A DNA stretch of 60,508 bases from a virus, in IMG/VR virus record IMGVR_UViG_3300026473_000272, positions 1 through 60,508 of that record, one strand, 5' to 3'. Of the stretch, positions 7,567-18,704 are shown piece after piece (position 1 is the stretch's first letter; every line of letters starts with the position of its first letter). Made by a program: the position numbers and the translations under genes. The notes below the pieces were generated by a model. The model did no database searches, had not been told where the DNA came from, and saw only the letters and a program-made list of their open reading frames with translations.

Positions 7567-7964
7567 TGATTAGTACTATTATGCCCACAGGTAGATATGT
7601 GCAGGTGTCAGGAGGCGGCGCCAGCACATACGTCAATAACTATTCTGGTTCACAGGGTGTCGGCAACATGCGATACAATACCAGTATGCAATGCATGGAA
7701 GTCTTTGACGGTCAGAACTGGCAAAAGATAAACATGGCAACCGCTTCAGTTGGCCTAAATCACGAAGCAGAGTCATTGCTAGACTGGGCCCGTGATAAAC
7801 GTGCCGAAGAACTACAGTGGAAATCATTGGCTGAAACTAACTCCGCTGTTAAAATAGCATTAGAAAATCTAGAAAAAGCAAAACAACAACTAAAAATAAC
7901 TGCGACATTGGCACAAGAAACATCACGTGACTATGGAGAAGTTATGGAACAGGCAAGCCCATAA
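7566..7964 (+). CDS. Phage protein with fibre-like N-terminus and coiled-coil end
   Basis: 132 residues. Residues 1-55 contain MRYNTSMQCMEVFDGQNWQKI, a pattern like the 'YDG..W' repeats of tail-fibre proteins, including those at the right end of this window. Residues 60-130 are helical and probably coiled coil (AESLLDWARDKRAEELQWK, ALENLEKAKQQLKI). It lies between the clamp and the DpdA-like gene with 1-2 bp joins, so it belongs to the same transcript. Function unknown. Confidence 0.65.
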   Translation: MISTIMPTGRYVQVSGGGASTYVNNYSGSQGVGNMRYNTSMQCMEVFDGQNWQKINMATASVGLNHEAESLLDWARDKRAEELQWKSLAETNSAVKIALENLEKAKQQLKITATLAQETSRDYGEVMEQASP

Positions 7965-7965
7965 T

Positions 7966-9507
7966 ATGAAAAGACAAATACACCTTACACCATTGCAGAA
8001 AGATTATGCTGTATATCTACCTGCTATCAGTAGTTTTTACAGCACCTATGTAGCTAAACAACGACTCGAAGAGTTTGTGCCTAACGACCGTATTCCTAAA
8101 GGAATGGATCGAGGTATCGAAGGAATGAACTTTCTTAACGAAGAAGAAGGTTACTTTACCTATACCTATGCGCTGTATTCTGCAGGACATGCTCAGTTAG
8201 ATCTCCAGAAAAGCCTTGAGCAAGAATCAATGATACAGCAACGTAATAGAGGTCGTACCGTTATCGTAGGAGATTCCGGCGGATATCAGATTGGTAAAGG
8301 TGTTCTTAAGTTTGATTGGTTGAACTTCGAAGGTGCAGAAGCTAACAAGACTCGTAAAAAGATTCTTGAGTGGTTAGAACTAACTGCTGACTGGTCTATG
8401 ATGCTGGACGTTCCGACTTGGGCGTGTGACCACATTCACAGTCCAAAGACTGGGCTAAAGACTTTTGAAGACTGTCTAGAAAAGACTCGCTTCAATAACA
8501 AATATTTCCTTGATAATCGCCTAGGGCAAACTAAATGGCTTAATGTGCTTCAAGGTGGTGACTGGGATACTGCACAACAATGGTACGAAGGTGTTAAAGA
8601 GTTTAGCGATCCTAATGGCCCCTATGCTGGTAAAGAAGCAGAAGGATGGGCCTTTGGTGGTGCCAACATGTGCAAGATGGACATTACCCTCAAACGTTTG
8701 ATGGTGATGCGTGACGAAGGAATGTTAACCGGTAAGAACTGGATCCACTTCCTGGGTACAGCACAGTTAGACTGGAGTTGTTACCTAACACAGATCCAAC
8801 GTCAAATCCGTAAGCACATCAATCCAGAACTGACTATTAGCTTTGACTGCGCTAGTCCATTTATTGCTACAGCTCACGGCCTTGTTTACACTAATGCACA
8901 ACATCTTAACAAGCGTTGGTCAGTAATCATGGACAAGGCTCCTGATAATAAGGCACTAGCAGGCAGCGATATTCCGTTTCCTTTTGAAAGCGAGTTTGGT
9001 AGCAGATTAACAATGGGGGATATCTGCTATATGGCTCCCGGTATGCTAAACAAACTTGGCAAAGAAGGTAAGACTAGTTGGGATAGTTTTGCATATGCTC
9101 TAATGATGGGTCATAATGTAGAATGTCATATCAAGGCAGTACAACGTGCTCAACAGTTAATGGATATCGAATGCACTAGATTCAAACCAGATTGGCGTAA
9201 CTGGGGTCTCGAAGGCAAGAAAGAGATCGAGTTAAGCGAATGGGTTCCTAGAAAGATCCTTTATTTCGGCACATTCATCGAAGAACTGTTTAATACTAAA
9301 GATAAAACAGAAGCATTTGATCTTATCAATAATGCCGGTGGATTCTTAAAGAGTCTCGAAGGTGCTCGACTACAAGGTGGTCCTGCTGATAACGAGTTTA
9401 ATAACTTGTTTGATTGGGGTGATGCCAAAAAAACTGATCCTGAAAACTTTGATCAACAGGATGATGACGATTTACGTGCTTTAGAAACCGAACTTACACA
9501 GGAGTAA
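7966..9507 (+). CDS. dpdA: DpdA-type 7-deazaguanine DNA transglycosylase (TGT superfamily)
   Basis: 513 residues with the signatures of the tRNA-guanine transglycosylase fold: GDSGGYQIG at 102-110 (D103 matches the general-base Asp of TGT's DSGGFQ), LDVPTWACD near 148-155, WAFGG near 228-232, and ISFDCASPF at 291-299, where D294 matches the nucleophile of TGT's FDC motif. The CxCxxC zinc site of tRNA TGTs is not visible and the protein is longer, as in phage DpdA enzymes that swap guanine in DNA for preQ0 or its derivatives. FolE and QueE in the same operon supply that pathway. The start is the ATG at 7966, one base after the previous stop; an in-frame 7927 would lie inside the previous gene. 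The alternative is a TGT paralog of other substrate. Confidence 0.8.
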   Translation: MKRQIHLTPLQKDYAVYLPAISSFYSTYVAKQRLEEFVPNDRIPKGMDRGIEGMNFLNEEEGYFTYTYALYSAGHAQLDLQKSLEQESMIQQRNRGRTVIVGDSGGYQIGKGVLKFDWLNFEGAEANKTRKKILEWLELTADWSMMLDVPTWACDHIHSPKTGLKTFEDCLEKTRFNNKYFLDNRLGQTKWLNVLQGGDWDTAQQWYEGVKEFSDPNGPYAGKEAEGWAFGGANMCKMDITLKRLMVMRDEGMLTGKNWIHFLGTAQLDWSCYLTQIQRQIRKHINPELTISFDCASPFIATAHGLVYTNAQHLNKRWSVIMDKAPDNKALAGSDIPFPFESEFGSRLTMGDICYMAPGMLNKLGKEGKTSWDSFAYALMMGHNVECHIKAVQRAQQLMDIECTRFKPDWRNWGLEGKKEIELSEWVPRKILYFGTFIEELFNTKDKTEAFDLINNAGGFLKSLEGARLQGGPADNEFNNLFDWGDAKKTDPENFDQQDDDDLRALETELTQE

Positions 9508-11286: not shown

Positions 11287-11495
11287 GAGTAACTAAAGAG
11301 TTTATAGTAAAAGAAAACGAAGGTTTTCGAGTTCGTGTAAAAGCTGTGCCTTGTCTTTCTCCTAAAGAACTAATCGCACTAGATTTTATCCAAGAAAGCC
11401 TAAATAAAGGCAAGGTAGTAGATTCTAGCACTTATAACTTCTTTATGACCAAAGAAGAAATCAACGATCTAGTAGAAGGACTACAACAGATATGA
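11283..11495 (+). CDS. Small phage protein, unknown (70 aa)
   Basis: 70 residues, overlapping both neighbours by 4 bp. The N-terminus MRVTKEFIVKENEGFRVRVKAV is beta-like and the C-terminus (PKELIALDFIQESL, MTKEEINDLVEGLQQI) helical. No family recognised. Confidence 0.6.
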   Translation: MRVTKEFIVKENEGFRVRVKAVPCLSPKELIALDFIQESLNKGKVVDSSTYNFFMTKEEINDLVEGLQQI

Positions 11496-11887
11496 TTATC
11501 CGACAGGACATTCGTCCTAACAAAATGATCTGGGTCACTTTCCGTAAAGAAGGTATTCACTGCTTTCCGGCGGCGGCCACAGATCCTAACCTAGCTACAG
11601 GAGATGAATACGATGTATCGTTTCTTGCCACTCCTCATCGCCATATCTTTCACTTCAGGGTGTGGATCAGTGTGCAGCACAATGACAGGGACATCGAGTT
11701 CATCCAGTTCAAACGATGGCTCGAGTCGTTGTATAATGGTCAAGATTCCGTTTTGAAGCTTGACTACAAGAGTTGCGAAATGATGTCAGATGATTTATAT
11801 GACATGATTTCACAAAAGTATCCAAATCGTGAGATTTGGATTGAGGTCTCCGAAGACGGAGAAAATGGTTCATTCATCAAATACTAA
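11492..11887 (+). CDS. QueD/6-pyruvoyl-tetrahydropterin synthase-like protein with degenerate active site
   Basis: 131 residues, the usual size of this T-fold family. PHRHIFHFRVWISV (48-61) matches the zinc-binding HxH strand of QueD, DIEFIQFKRWLESL (67-80) matches its 'vvDF..lk' segment, LDYKSCE (90-96) sits where QueD has LDHxxLN, and IEVSEDGENGSFIKY (117-131) matches the 'V.V.ET....A.Y' pterin-binding end with E121. Compared with active enzymes, the first zinc histidine, the catalytic cysteine (Ser43 at that place) and the catalytic histidine (Tyr92) appear lost. It may be a repurposed or structural relative. The operon context with FolE, QueE and DpdA supports the link. Confidence 0.5.
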   Translation: MIIRQDIRPNKMIWVTFRKEGIHCFPAAATDPNLATGDEYDVSFLATPHRHIFHFRVWISVQHNDRDIEFIQFKRWLESLYNGQDSVLKLDYKSCEMMSDDLYDMISQKYPNREIWIEVSEDGENGSFIKY

Positions 11888-11896
11888 GGAACAATG

Positions 11897-12151
11897 ATGA
11901 GTAAAAACTACAAGGATTTCAAATATTTTGAAAGACGTCCTGACATCGTCAAAATCTTTGACGATCTAGATGCGTACCTCGACTTCTGCAGGTTTGAGTT
12001 ACGTGAGTTCAATCCCGCAGATCTTTACAAGAAAGATTCTGCAAACTATCAGGCTTATCTAGCAAGTAAGCGTCCACGTAGACCTTGGGTCGATCGTGGT
12101 GAACGTTCTCATAATGGTCAAAGACCACATTACAACCGCAGGGGCAACTAA
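11897..12151 (+). CDS. Conserved small basic phage protein
   Basis: 84 residues. ATG 11897 is preferred to ATG 11894 because AAGGA at 11886-11890 then stands six bases away. MSKNYKDFKYFERRPDIVKIFDDLDAYLDFCRFELREFNPADLY is well-ordered; the tail (KRPRRPWVDRGERSHNGQRPHYNRRGN) is strongly basic and likely flexible, possibly nucleic-acid-binding. No family recognised. Overlaps the next gene by TAATG. Confidence 0.6.
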   Translation: MSKNYKDFKYFERRPDIVKIFDDLDAYLDFCRFELREFNPADLYKKDSANYQAYLASKRPRRPWVDRGERSHNGQRPHYNRRGN

Positions 12152-13248
12152 TGGCAAGGGTTTTCCTAGTAGATTTGGAATCAGTTGAAACTCGTTACAC
12201 TTGCGAATGGAAAACCCATTTCCCTGCACTTCTCAAAAAGGAGGGGCATGATGTTCAAGTTATCGATGGCCCTACGGATATTCCTGCGGCCACTACTCCT
12301 GGTGCTTTTCTTAATTTTGGTGGCACCAATATATACAAGTCTAGTCAAGTTGAGAAAATTGGCAGACTATTTTGCTCCGGATCAGTGGGCCCTGGTGATC
12401 ATTTTATTTTTGCAGATGCTTGGCATCCTGGGATCATTAACCTCAAATACATGAGCGAACTTCTTGGCATTCCTGTCAAGATTCATGCTCTATGGCATGC
12501 TGGCAGTTATGATCCTCAAGACTTCTTAGGACGCCTTATTGGTAATGCTCCTTGGGTTAGAAACGCTGAGAAGAGTTTCTATCATTCAATCGATTATAAC
12601 TACTTTGCCACAGAGTTCCATGTAAGACTGTTCTTCGATGAACTCTTACATGGAGGAATCCCTAGCGAGAATCCTTGGTACTACGAAGACTGGGAAGAGC
12701 GTTACGATAGCGGTAAAATCGTTCGCTCTGGATGGCCCATGGAATATATGAAAGATACTTTGGTCATGTATAAGAATATGCCAAAGCGCGATCTTATCTT
12801 ATTTCCACATCGTATCGCTCCGGAGAAACAGATAGAGATATTTCAAGATCTAAAAGAACATCTTCCTCAATACGAGTTTGTAGTCTGTCAAGAACAACAG
12901 CTCACTAAAAGAGAATATCATAACATGCTCGGAGAGGCCAAACTAGTGTTTAGTGCAAACCTGCAAGAAACATTGGGTATTAGTTGGTACGAAGGTGCTA
13001 TCGTAGATGCTATTCCTATGGTTCCAGATCGTTTAAGCTACAGCGAAATGGCAATGGAAGATTTCAAATATCCTAGTGAATGGACTGAGTCGTTTGATGC
13101 CTATACCAAGCATAGAAACGCAGTCGTAGACAGAGTCCAACACTACATGGAAAATTATAAATCTTACCTCCCCCGCCTAAATAAACAGGTAGATCGATTA
13201 ACAGAAAACTTTTTTAGTTGCAATAAGTTACTAGAGAAGTTAAAATAA
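12151..13248 (+). CDS. GT-B fold glycosyltransferase (GT4-like)
   Basis: 365 residues with two Rossmann-like halves. The C-terminal half has LILFPHRIAPEKQIEIF (215-231) and ETLGISWYEGAIVDAIPMV (273-291), the E-x7-E donor-binding motif of retaining GT-B enzymes (E273, E281). The donor and acceptor are unknown. It sits inside the nucleotide/base-modification operon and far from the sugar island at 23-41 kb, so a nucleic-acid acceptor, as with the T4 DNA glucosyltransferases, is worth considering; this is inference. The gene is followed by a 43-bp gap before FolE. Confidence 0.7.
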   Translation: MARVFLVDLESVETRYTCEWKTHFPALLKKEGHDVQVIDGPTDIPAATTPGAFLNFGGTNIYKSSQVEKIGRLFCSGSVGPGDHFIFADAWHPGIINLKYMSELLGIPVKIHALWHAGSYDPQDFLGRLIGNAPWVRNAEKSFYHSIDYNYFATEFHVRLFFDELLHGGIPSENPWYYEDWEERYDSGKIVRSGWPMEYMKDTLVMYKNMPKRDLILFPHRIAPEKQIEIFQDLKEHLPQYEFVVCQEQQLTKREYHNMLGEAKLVFSANLQETLGISWYEGAIVDAIPMVPDRLSYSEMAMEDFKYPSEWTESFDAYTKHRNAVVDRVQHYMENYKSYLPRLNKQVDRLTENFFSCNKLLEKLK

Positions 13249-13291: not shown

Positions 13292-14035
13292 TTGGAAAAT
13301 AAAGAAACAGCATTAGACGTCATGTTCGGCGACGGCGGATATGAAGAAGCTTATCTTGGCGATCATATTCGCTTTAAGATGAAGCGTGAAGGCAAACGCT
13401 TTTGGGCCGGTGACAACATCAGCGACTACTTACACGAAGGCGATAAAGAACAACTAATCGACGAAGCGACAGAAGCATTTGAACTAGTGCTTGACCGTTT
13501 ACTGATCGATCGTGAAAGCGATCCTAACAGCAAGGGCACCGCTCGCCGACTAGCTAAAATGTATTTTAACGAAATAATGGCAGGAAGATATGACCCAGCA
13601 CCAGACGCAACAGCTTTCCCAAATGACACGCAGGATCGTTACGAAGGTATGCTGGTTGTTCGCAGTGAGCTTCGCAGTATGTGTAGCCATCATCACCAAC
13701 CTGTGGTTGGTGTTGCTTATATTGGTCTTATTGCTGCCGAGAAGCTCATTGGACTCTCAAAGTACACCCGCATCGCCCAGTGGTGTGCCCGACGTGGAAC
13801 TCTCCAGGAGGAACTTGCTAATGACATTGCTAGGGAAATCCAGAAAGCAACCGGAGCCAAAGACCTAGGAGTTTACATCCAGGCTACACATGGTTGCTGT
13901 GAGAATCGTGGCATCATGGCACACTCTAGTCTTACACAGACTACTGTCTTAAAGGGCGCCTTTAAAGATGATGCTGGAACGAAGAAAGAATTCTTTGACA
14001 ACATCAAAATGCAACAGGAGTTTGCACCTCGATGA
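13292..14035 (+). CDS. folE: GTP cyclohydrolase I
   Basis: 247 residues. It opens GTP to 7,8-dihydroneopterin triphosphate, the first step of both folate and 7-deazaguanine (preQ0) synthesis. The zinc site is visible: [10 protein letters not shown] (C131, H134) and HGCCENRG (C202 or C203). The segment [20 protein letters not shown] (156-175) matches the family's substrate-binding helix. The start is TTG at 13292 with GGAG nine bases upstream; the first in-frame ATG (13322) would remove only ten residues, so the exact N-terminus is uncertain. The stop overlaps guaC by 4 bp. Confidence 0.93.
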
Positions 14036-15051
14036 GAATCGAAGACGAAATCAAACTTGACTTCAAAGATGTTCTTATAAGGCCTAAAAGATCTACACTT
14101 TCTAGCAGAAAAGAAGTAGACCTGAATAGAACTTATAAGTTCAAATACAGCGGATGGGAATGGTCAGGTATTCCCATTATGGCATCAAACATGGATGGTG
14201 TCGGAACTATGGAAATGGCCGATGCACTATACTCTCAGAGAATGTTTACGTGCCTTGTAAAATCTTATACCGAAGATCAGTTTGAAGATCTTGTTGCTAA
14301 TGTCGGCGGAAACTATTTTGCAGTTAGCACAGGAACTAGTGATGCTGATTTTCAAAGACTTACTAGGATTATAAACAGCTATCCAGAAATTCATTTTATC
14401 TGTGTAGATGTTGCTAACGGGTATAGTGAACACTTTGGTGATTTTATTTCTAAAGTCCGTAAGACATTTCCTAAATGCACGATCATTGCCGGTAATGTTG
14501 TAACCGCAGACATGACACAGGAGTTAGTTTTACGTGGAGCAGATATTATTAAAGTGGGCATCGGTCCTGGGAGCGTTTGCACTACTCGTGTACAAACTGG
14601 CGTTGGTTATCCTCAGCTTAGTGCTATTATGGAGTGCGCTGATGCTGCTCATGGTCTTGGCGCTCATATCATCGCAGACGGCGGTTGTACCTGTCCAGGT
14701 GACGTGGCAAAAGCCTTTGGCGCTGGTGCTGACTTCGTTATGCTAGGCGGTATGCTAGCAGGACACGATGAAGGCGGAGGCCATATCGATAATGATAAGG
14801 TTATATTTTACGGAATGAGTTCAGAGACTGCTATGAATAAGCATAGCGGCGGTGTTGCAGAATATCGAAGCTCAGAAGGTCGTACTGTAGAAATCCCCTA
14901 TCGTGGTCCTGTACAGAAAACTGTACAAGATATACTAGGCGGCTTGCGTAGCACCTGCACGTATGTTGGTGCTCCTAGTCTTAAGCAGTTGAGTAAGTGT
15001 ACCACATTTATCCGTGTCAACAGACAGATCAACGATGTGTTCTTAAAATGA
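14032..15051 (+). CDS. guaC: GMP reductase
   Basis: 339 residues, collinear with E. coli GuaC from [20 protein letters not shown] to the C-terminus. It reduces GMP to IMP with NADPH. The catalytic cysteine is C183 in [11 protein letters not shown]; the flap and nucleotide-binding segments ([34 protein letters not shown]) are intact. In a phage that makes 7-deazaguanine from GTP this enzyme would drain GMP toward adenine nucleotides and could lower competition from normal guanine nucleotides. It overlaps folE upstream and the glycosylase gene downstream by 4 bp each, so all three should be made together. Confidence 0.96.
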
Positions 15052-15482: not shown

Positions 15483-15933
15483 TAAGCTAGGAAGAAAACG
15501 CATCATTTATGATCGCGTACACAACGAACCGTATCTCGAACGATACTATCTTTTCTTAAAAGATAGAGATCGTTTTCCCTTTAATGTATTCTTGCACAAG
15601 TTCTTGAAAGGTGATCCAGACGATGTGCATGATCACCCATGGCCTTATGCTACGCTAATCTTGAAAGGTGGCTACTATGAATGGGTACCTGAGTTTGATA
15701 GTAACGGTACTATGTTGGGTCAGCGCCGTCATTGGCGTGGCCCTGGTCACTTTAGGATCTGTAGTCCTAATTCTTATCATAGGATCGAACTGAAAGAAGG
15801 TGTTACTGCCTGGACATTGTTTATGCCAGGACCTCATAAGCGTGAATGGGGATTCTTAGTTAAGAACAAATGGATTCAACACGAACAATATCTTAAGGAG
15901 AGATATGAACAAGCTCATAATCGACCAGCATAA
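15463..15933 (+). CDS. Cupin-fold protein
   Basis: 156 residues. VHDHPWPYATLILKGGYYEW (about 55-74) is a cupin motif 1 with two histidines, and the region GPGHFRICSPNSYHRIEL (about 93-110) carries the motif 2 histidine. Small cupins bind a metal and are often sugar epimerases/isomerases or oxygenases; nothing in the sequence fixes a reaction. It overlaps the glycosylase by 20 bp and the next gene by 29 bp, tight translational coupling. Confidence 0.75.
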   Translation: MFLKLLDKLGRKRIIYDRVHNEPYLERYYLFLKDRDRFPFNVFLHKFLKGDPDDVHDHPWPYATLILKGGYYEWVPEFDSNGTMLGQRRHWRGPGHFRICSPNSYHRIELKEGVTAWTLFMPGPHKREWGFLVKNKWIQHEQYLKERYEQAHNRPA

Positions 15934-16417
15934 CATGACTGGTCTAGTCAGCAAAATCGGTAGGAATATTGCTACCGGAGGTTGGCGTCCTGATTATATC
16001 GTAGGGCTCACTAGAGGTGGGCTTGTTCCCGCTGTTATGCTCAGTCATTATCTTAATGTACCGTTGAATACATTGAATGTAAGTCTTAGAGACGGTGGCG
16101 AATGCGATAGTAATCTATGGATGGCTGAAGATGCATTTGGGCACAATCAAGAGTTTCCTAAAAACATACTCATCGTAGATGATATTAATGACACTGGTGC
16201 TACCTTTAACTGGATCATGGAAGACTGGCCTAGTGGATGTTTTCCTAATGACGATCACTGGAACTATGTGTGGAATAAGAATGTTAAGTTTGCTGTTCTA
16301 GTAGATAATCTAGCCAGCAAGTGTAATGTAAAAATGGACTACGTTGGCATGGAAATCAACAAAGCCGAAGATGATGTCTGGGTTGATTTCCCCTGGGAAG
16401 ATTGGTGGTCAAAATGA
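15905..16417 (+). CDS. Purine phosphoribosyltransferase (Gpt/HPRT-like)
   Basis: 170 residues with the type I phosphoribosyltransferase PRPP loop ILIVDDINDTGATF (88-101), an N-terminal PDYIVGLTRGGLVPA (29-43) and a C-terminal WVDFPWE, which is typical of xanthine/hypoxanthine-guanine enzymes. It would attach ribose-5-phosphate from PRPP to a free purine. Next to GuaC and FolE it fits purine salvage for the deazaguanine pathway. AAGGAG precedes the ATG, inside the end of the cupin gene. Confidence 0.85.
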   Translation: MNKLIIDQHNMTGLVSKIGRNIATGGWRPDYIVGLTRGGLVPAVMLSHYLNVPLNTLNVSLRDGGECDSNLWMAEDAFGHNQEFPKNILIVDDINDTGATFNWIMEDWPSGCFPNDDHWNYVWNKNVKFAVLVDNLASKCNVKMDYVGMEINKAEDDVWVDFPWEDWWSK

Positions 16418-17657: not shown

Positions 17658-17863
17658 AAAGATCTTGGGAAGTTACTGTAGAACATGATGAAACCACTGG
17701 AAACTATTATATACAACTTCCAGAAGAGGCTATAAAGGCCAGTGGTCTTGAAATCGGAGATTCTTTTTATTGGAGTGATAATGGCGATGGGTCTTACACC
17801 TTGATAAAAGAGGACTTGACAACTTTTATAAAAAAAGGTATAATAAAGAATGAGCAAGATTAA
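17654..17863 (+). CDS. AbrB/MazE-like swapped-hairpin protein
   Basis: 69 residues. WEVTVEHDETTGNYYIQLPEEAIKASGLEIGDSFYWSDNGDGSYTLIK follows the AbrB/MazE pattern: a strand, 'lP.e....gl..GD.....d..dG.....'. Such proteins bind DNA as dimers, as transition regulators or antitoxins. No toxin gene adjoins it. Its last codons contain the consensus promoter at 17816-17844 and overlap queE by 14 bp. Confidence 0.6.
   Translation: MKRSWEVTVEHDETTGNYYIQLPEEAIKASGLEIGDSFYWSDNGDGSYTLIKEDLTTFIKKGIIKNEQD
17816..17844 (+). promoter_or_regulatory. Consensus sigma70 promoter TTGACA-17-TATAAT
   Basis: TTGACA (17816-17821) and TATAAT (17839-17844) are both perfect and 17 bp apart. Transcription should start near 17850-17852, that is at the ATG of queE (17850), which would make a leaderless queE message or a transcript that serves only the genes after it. 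The promoter is inside the preceding gene. Confidence 0.8.
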
Positions 17864-18704
17864 GATAGCAGAACTATTCTATTCAATCCAAGGCGAAGGA
17901 CGATATATGGGTGTACCGTCCGTCTTCTTACGTACATTTGGCTGTAACTTTAAGTGTGCCGGCTTTGGTATGCCTAAAGGAGAACTAAGCAATGAAGTTG
18001 AATCCATTGCAGAACGTATTACAGAGTTTAAGTCGTACCAAGAACTACCGCTTGTTAGCACAGGTTGTGATAGTTACGCTAGTTGGGATCCTCGTTTTAA
18101 AGATCTCAGCCCAATGCTTACAAGCGATGGTATTGCAGAACGTATCTGTGAAATCCTTCCGTTTGGAGAGTGGCGGGATGAACACTTGGTAATCACCGGT
18201 GGCGAACCTTTGTTAGGTTGGCAACGTGCATATCCGGATTTACTGCGTCATCCTAAGATGGCAGGTCTTAAAGAAATCACTTTTGAAACTAATGGTACTC
18301 AACCTATCAGTGAAGATTTTAAAGAGTACTTGCTAGAATGGCTCATGCCTCATCCAGATTACACAAGAGAAATCACTTTTAGTGTAAGTGCTAAACTCAG
18401 TTGTTCAGGTGAAAGCAGGGACGAAGCCATCCGTCCAGAGATCGTTTGCGAATATGAAAACTGGGGTTATACATATCTTAAGTTTGTAGTGGCCACAGAA
18501 GAAGATGCAGAAGAAGCGATTGAAACAGCAGACATCTATCGTGCAGAAGGGTTTACTGGTCCTATATATTTGATGCCTGTAGGTGGTGTGGAAAGCGTTT
18601 ATACATTAAATAATCGCCGAGTAGCGGAACTAGCAATGAAGAACGGACTTCGCTATTCAGATCGCCTACAGGTACCTTTGTTTAAAAATGAATGGGGTAC
18701 TTAA
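17850..18704 (+). CDS. queE: 7-carboxy-7-deazaguanine synthase with split radical SAM motif
   Basis: 284 residues. The N-terminus IAELFYSIQGEGRYMGVPSVFLRTFGC is the QueE signature; QueE is a radical SAM enzyme that turns 6-carboxytetrahydropterin into 7-carboxy-7-deazaguanine. The first two cluster cysteines are C32 and C36, but the third is displaced to C73 (TGCDSYASWD, matching the usual WCDT..W) by a 36-residue insertion. LVITGGEP (113-120) binds SAM. With FolE and DpdA it supports a preQ0-type DNA modification. No Shine-Dalgarno sequence is obvious; the ATG is needed to keep the IQGEG motif. The stop overlaps the next start (TAATG). Confidence 0.92.
   Translation: MSKIKIAELFYSIQGEGRYMGVPSVFLRTFGCNFKCAGFGMPKGELSNEVESIAERITEFKSYQELPLVSTGCDSYASWDPRFKDLSPMLTSDGIAERICEILPFGEWRDEHLVITGGEPLLGWQRAYPDLLRHPKMAGLKEITFETNGTQPISEDFKEYLLEWLMPHPDYTREITFSVSAKLSCSGESRDEAIRPEIVCEYENWGYTYLKFVVATEEDAEEAIETADIYRAEGFTGPIYLMPVGGVESVYTLNNRRVAELAMKNGLRYSDRLQVPLFKNEWGT

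Follow-up and report, generated by a model that had tools for sequence, protein, structure and literature searches.

The P gene and its surroundings

The window analyzed here, by which we mean the whole stretch of a 60.5-kb virus record, carries a short open reading frame at positions 11492–11887 among genes for a DpdA-like transglycosylase, a glycosyltransferase (GT)-like protein, FolE and a QueE-like enzyme (Table 1). The product of this frame and its homologs are called P throughout. The original prediction had placed the frame at these positions, and re-examination upheld both the frame and its boundaries. The start of the P gene overlaps the upstream open reading frame by 4 bases; downstream, a small open reading frame follows after 6 bases and is itself followed by the GT-like gene.

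Table 1. Genes of the window that are discussed in the text.
Feature	Position	Strand	Evidence
DpdA-like transglycosylase, 526 aa, TGT fold, DSGG motif	7927..9507	+	Predicted structure, hhalign
T-fold protein P, phrog_17812, 131 aa	11492..11887	+	Profile match, alignment, AlphaFold2 model
Glycosyltransferase-like protein, conserved P neighbor	12151..13248	+	Homolog in 95/111 full-flank loci
FolE, GTP cyclohydrolase I	13292..14035	+	Pfam E 5.9e-39
IMPDH/GMP reductase family protein	14032..15051	+	Pfam E 4.8e-71; overlaps folE by 4 bases
Purine phosphoribosyltransferase-like protein	15905..16417	+	NF006613 E 1.9e-10, below curated cut-off
QueE-like radical SAM protein, CDG synthase	17850..18704	+	TIGR03365 E 1.5e-12, below curated cut-off

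P matches phrog_17812 (E = 1.7e-31), a group annotated as "function unknown". A Pfam search with the P protein of the window returns no match at all, PF01242 included, and weak matches to PF01242 occur in 12 of 68 members of the P family (best E = 0.0024). Relatives of P are encoded in at least 599 viral contig stretches; a phiST query against viral contigs found nothing. In addition, 26 phage records match P, each with "hypothetical protein" listed under the match, and 26 further P loci lie in bacterial or archaeal assemblies. Isolated phages with P include ACP17, phiST, PA5oct and Paride. Ten pairwise comparisons of P give pN values of 0.05–0.12 versus pS values of 0.43–0.78. P is a real gene under strong purifying selection and belongs to a widespread phage family.

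P also occurs as part of longer proteins. In MA9V-3 (L084:7395-8276) it forms the C-terminal part of a longer open reading frame whose N-terminal part resembles an HNH endonuclease by eye, and a longer frame in the Bakedbeans phage (L086:9212-10363) likewise ends in P. Two predicted viral proteins in BFVD, A0A8S5V119 and A0A6J5LEZ6 (300 and 459 residues, named "AAA domain protein" and "Alcohol dehydrogenase, N-terminal", respectively), contain a P-like domain and are possible fusions.

Sequence family libraries return no match for the DpdA-like protein of the window, which was therefore identified by its fold. Its AlphaFold2 model has a pLDDT of 84.9, all 35 Foldseek matches in the PDB at E ≤ 0.001 are TGTs, and hhalign relates it to an ACP17-type TGT (E = 1.9e-7). 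Within the GT family, one member (L200) matches Glycos_transf_1 (E = 7e-5, below the cut-off) as well as GT PHROGs.

Fold and conserved residues of P

An AlphaFold2 model of P built from 68 sequences has a mean pLDDT of 92.2 and a pTM of 0.83. The best Foldseek matches in the PDB are Escherichia coli QueD (E = 7e-6, TM 0.67/0.72) and then other PTPS proteins, VIA-align gives Z scores of 12.8 to Pyrococcus horikoshii PTPS and 11.8 to QueD, and hhalign, run with P against a profile built from 21 QueD-type proteins encoded at related loci, returns a probability of 92 (E = 6.5e-7). These analyses all point to QueD/PTPS, bearing out the QueD-type T-fold that had been proposed from the sequence. Bacterioferritin was considered as a relative and set aside: its PDB profile matches span 52 residues with E values no better than 0.02 and were taken as chance.

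In the profile alignment, H23, H49 and H51 of P fall on the three zinc His residues of QueD, E96 and E121 on two Glu residues invariant in the QueD set, and E69-F70 on the DF of QueD. Fourteen residues, H23, A28, L45, H49, R50, H51, H63, R66, E69, F70, S94, E96, D122 and E124, are invariant in all 68 P sequences, while C95 is kept in 63 (Val in the other five) and E121 in 67 (Ile in one). The HxH motif (H49 and H51) and the terminal Glu of the T-fold (E121, near the C-terminus) are thus retained, as predicted. The first zinc His had been thought to be replaced, and this proved incorrect: H23 aligns with it and never varies. Of the DF motif the position is kept and the Asp is not. The LD pair that had been read as a QueD motif corresponds to L90-D91, directly before S94-C95-E96; since QueD has its Asp-His a good distance upstream of the corresponding Glu, L90-D91 is not the LDH motif of QueD.

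The predicted loss of catalytic residues holds. The position of the catalytic Cys, four residues before HxH, is Leu45 in 68/68 sequences, and the Cys of PTPS-I or PTPS-II is found in none. The Asp-His dyad, D67-H68, is invariant in the 21 QueD-type rows and has no counterpart in P in the profile alignment, so that its catalytic His is lost as well; ten P sequences have DH in the stretch before SCE, and in those inspected it stands right before SCE, where it is not equivalent to the QueD dyad. P also reads HRH in place of the HGH of QueD; 17 sequences have a Glu where PTPS-III has that of ExxHGH, again with HRH rather than HGH. The family therefore lacks the PTPS-I signature, given as CxxxHGH in passages of PMC5041015, and those of PTPS-II (CxxxxxHGH) and PTPS-III (ExxHGH). 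Retention of the zinc-triad His and ring-binding Glu residues, with the QueD Cys and Asp-His gone, suggests at the level of sequence that the reaction part of P has been rebuilt, and there is good support for the proposal that P is an altered enzyme with the fold of QueD.

P is accordingly both like and unlike QueD/PTPS-I (COG0720, PF01242). The two share the T-fold, the three zinc His, both ring-anchoring Glu residues and the company of FolE and QueE. However, P lacks the Cys of CxxxHGH and the Asp-His dyad, has HRH for HGH and new invariant His, Arg and Glu residues, lies below Pfam detection in the window, and coexists with real QueD proteins.

Gene company of P and its exchange with QueC

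According to passages of two papers, FolE, QueD and QueE lead to 7-carboxy-7-deazaguanine (CDG) (PMC6884629, PMC13329287). Gene content was compared across 111 full-flank loci, which have at least 4.5 kb on either side of P. Homologs of the GT lie near P in 95 of these loci, of DpdA in 94, of FolE in 91, of the purine phosphoribosyltransferase in 64, of QueE in 61 and of QueD in 28. Homologs of the GMP reductase/IMPDH gene are near P in only three.

A separate PTPS above the Pfam cut-off is present in 12 of the 13 isolated phage records with P, and a separate PTPS/QueD in 18 of 31 larger IMG/VR records with P; at the Amycolatopsis loci L202 and L207, QueD directly follows P. Given these separate genes, P was rejected as a replacement for QueD. 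They also leave the suggestion that the host supplies QueD without support as a general rule. In the clade of the window QueD is possibly host-supplied or undetected: a PTPS search of the window and of the nine large records closest to it (G001–G009, 62–153 kb, perhaps fragments) found none. A search for divergent QueD in 13 records, run with a single QueD protein as query and without a positive control, likewise found none.

One could suppose that P works as a CPH4 synthase, being a QueD that has diverged, or that it is an additional enzyme of PTPS type: QueD is its closest fold, the search of the window and of the nine related records turned up no other PTPS, and a quarter of the aligned sequences (17/68) have a Glu at the PTPS-III place. 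The separate QueD of nearly every isolated phage, the universal loss of the PTPS-I/II Cys, the unaligned Asp-His dyad and the poor conservation of that Glu nevertheless make this very unlikely.

Many of the phage QueDs encoded near P are themselves unusual and read FRQW..HC..LHGY (L081:5487-5978, L082:5778-6251, L083:4262-4726, L172:9408-9872 and others). By a simple pattern count of 32 distinct QueDs near P, 14 are without the first and third zinc His and keep the Cys and Asp-His, five more are HGY, and 13 are canonical HGH. PA5oct (NC_071039.1; L094, L106) has two PTPS genes, one of HGH type and one of HGY type. The notion that P and a zinc-poor QueD form one split enzyme was rejected, as P is also found with canonical HGH QueD.

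P and QueC exclude each other. Among 14 QueE phages without P, hand-chosen as controls for lineage spread, all have a full-length QueC (E = 4e-20 or better), whereas none of the 13 P phages does; P is present in 0/14 of the first set versus 13/13 of the second. A QueC-like match above the cut-off occurs in one of the 13 P phages, covering 69 of 210 positions, with one more below the cut-off; such matches occur in three of the 31 IMG/VR records with P, all of them partial, and a QueC search of the window found none. The association has a Fisher p of 5e-8; counting the partial match as QueC and dropping two near-duplicates raises it to 3e-6. In passages of Hutinet et al. 2019 on groups of QueC type, QueC is described as missing from only two named phages (PMC6884629), and these passages agree with the exchange of P for QueC. 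With QueC missing, CDG needs another fate, and P therefore probably acts at the next step, on CDG. The retooled T-fold family to which P belongs is widespread and sits in the slot of QueC, which gives this unannotated phage family a place in the pathway as an alternative to QueC.

It is conceivable, if unlikely, that P fills this slot without catalysis, as a zinc protein that captures either CDG or 7-deazaguanine and passes it to DpdA or shields it. The absence of the QueD catalytic residues from every P sequence and the retention of the ring-binding Glu and zinc ligands would suit such a role, but the invariance of H63, R66, R50, E69, D122 and E124 is more in keeping with an active site that was rebuilt than with one that decayed, and so strict an exchange for QueC suggests that P carries out a chemical step.

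A candidate reaction after QueE

The evidence tips, on balance, toward P being a zinc T-fold enzyme that acts after QueE and most likely decarboxylates CDG to 7-deazaguanine for DpdA. P would have descended from the QueD/PTPS family and taken over the post-QueE step in phages without QueC. E96 and E121 would grip the 2-amino-4-oxopyrimidine ring of CDG, while a zinc on H23, H49 and H51, chelated by the carboxylate and O6 of CDG, together with the new invariant R50, R66 and H63, would handle the carboxylate; CO2 would leave and C7 would be protonated to yield 7-deazaguanine. Iso-orotate decarboxylase is a metal-dependent decarboxylase to which the proposed zinc chelation can be likened. The DpdA-like transglycosylase would then exchange guanine in phage DNA for 7-deazaguanine. 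Zinc binding, CDG as the substrate, decarboxylation and DNA as the target are all steps that we infer.

Cui et al. in 2023 reportedly found phage DNA to contain dCDG and dDG, and for phages with dDG predicted a CDG decarboxylase, DpdL. P is expected at the same place in the pathway, after QueE, with DpdA and without QueC, and the P family shows the gene context that would be expected of DpdL, namely DpdA and QueE with no QueC. P may be DpdL, which we consider somewhat more likely than not. The name in the sense of a CDG decarboxylase was not found in the open literature searched, among the matches listed.

Several observations speak against decarboxylation by P. The QueC-like matches in one of 13 and three of 31 P records, although partial, do so, as do the substitutions of C95 and E121 in a few sequences. 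Moreover, the strongest positional partner of P is the GT, which is needless for plain 7-deazaguanine. P might instead turn CDG, or a base already in the DNA, into an acceptor for the GT, so that the final DNA base would be a glycosylated 7-deazaguanine. A GT homolog is present in 158 of 194 loci examined, no more than 300 nt from P in 121 of these 158, as well as at most of the full-flank loci (95/111), and the GT, P, DpdA and QueD genes form one overlapping or abutting run in Magnetospirillum chromosomes (L193:6847-10746, L194:6868-10569). However, a GT homolog is near P in only six of 13 INPHARED loci, a kinase-like gene takes its place after P in phiST, and the GT could target another base or molecule; we consider this reading rather unlikely. 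To our knowledge, no glycosylated 7-deazaguanine is known in DNA. The module of GT, P and DpdA recurs in many phages, and in Magnetospirillum the tight run that also includes QueD is near an integrase-like gene; it is doubtful that GT, P and the TGT-like DpdA constitute a self-contained module in which P converts CDG into the acceptor and whose product is a glycosylated 7-deazaguanine written into DNA. The integrase-like frame lies a few kb from the Magnetospirillum run, and a clear relative is near P in Aurantimonas (L190).

Two known enzymes offer further comparisons. QueC (PF06508) consumes CDG at the step where P is placed, but its fold, described as Rossmann-type in passages of PMC13329287, is unrelated to that of P, and in the phages tested one stands in for the other. 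TubF of the tubercidin pathway is, in passages of PMC6112128, the proposed decarboxylase of a CDG-derived compound, acting after phosphoribosylation; unlike P, it belongs to the UbiD family, uses prenylated FMN, has a nucleotide as its proposed substrate and has no T-fold. The proposed assignment of this CDG-route decarboxylation to a UbiD-family protein is a further argument against decarboxylation by P. The possibility that the Amycolatopsis loci represent a tubercidin-type cluster was rejected, since L202, L206 and L207 appear in raw lists of open reading frames as phage-like regions rather than clusters for a nucleoside antibiotic, and the proposed tubercidin decarboxylase is of UbiD type.

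If P does decarboxylate CDG, this would explain how a usable DNA base is obtained by phages that encode FolE, QueD and QueE while lacking QueC, would show the T-fold put to use on a carboxylate, and would allow phages with deazaguanine genes to be sorted by their content of QueC versus P. Exchange by DpdA would also free guanine, which the phosphoribosyltransferase or the GMP-reductase-family gene could return to GTP for FolE. This idea of guanine recycling comes from the frequency of the phosphoribosyltransferase near P, its fusion to FolE in one locus, and the overlap of the GMP-reductase-family gene with folE. In the fusion (L203:6445-7371), a single open reading frame joins a purine phosphoribosyltransferase domain (residues 3–130) to FolE (residues 133–309), hinting at guanine salvage that feeds FolE.
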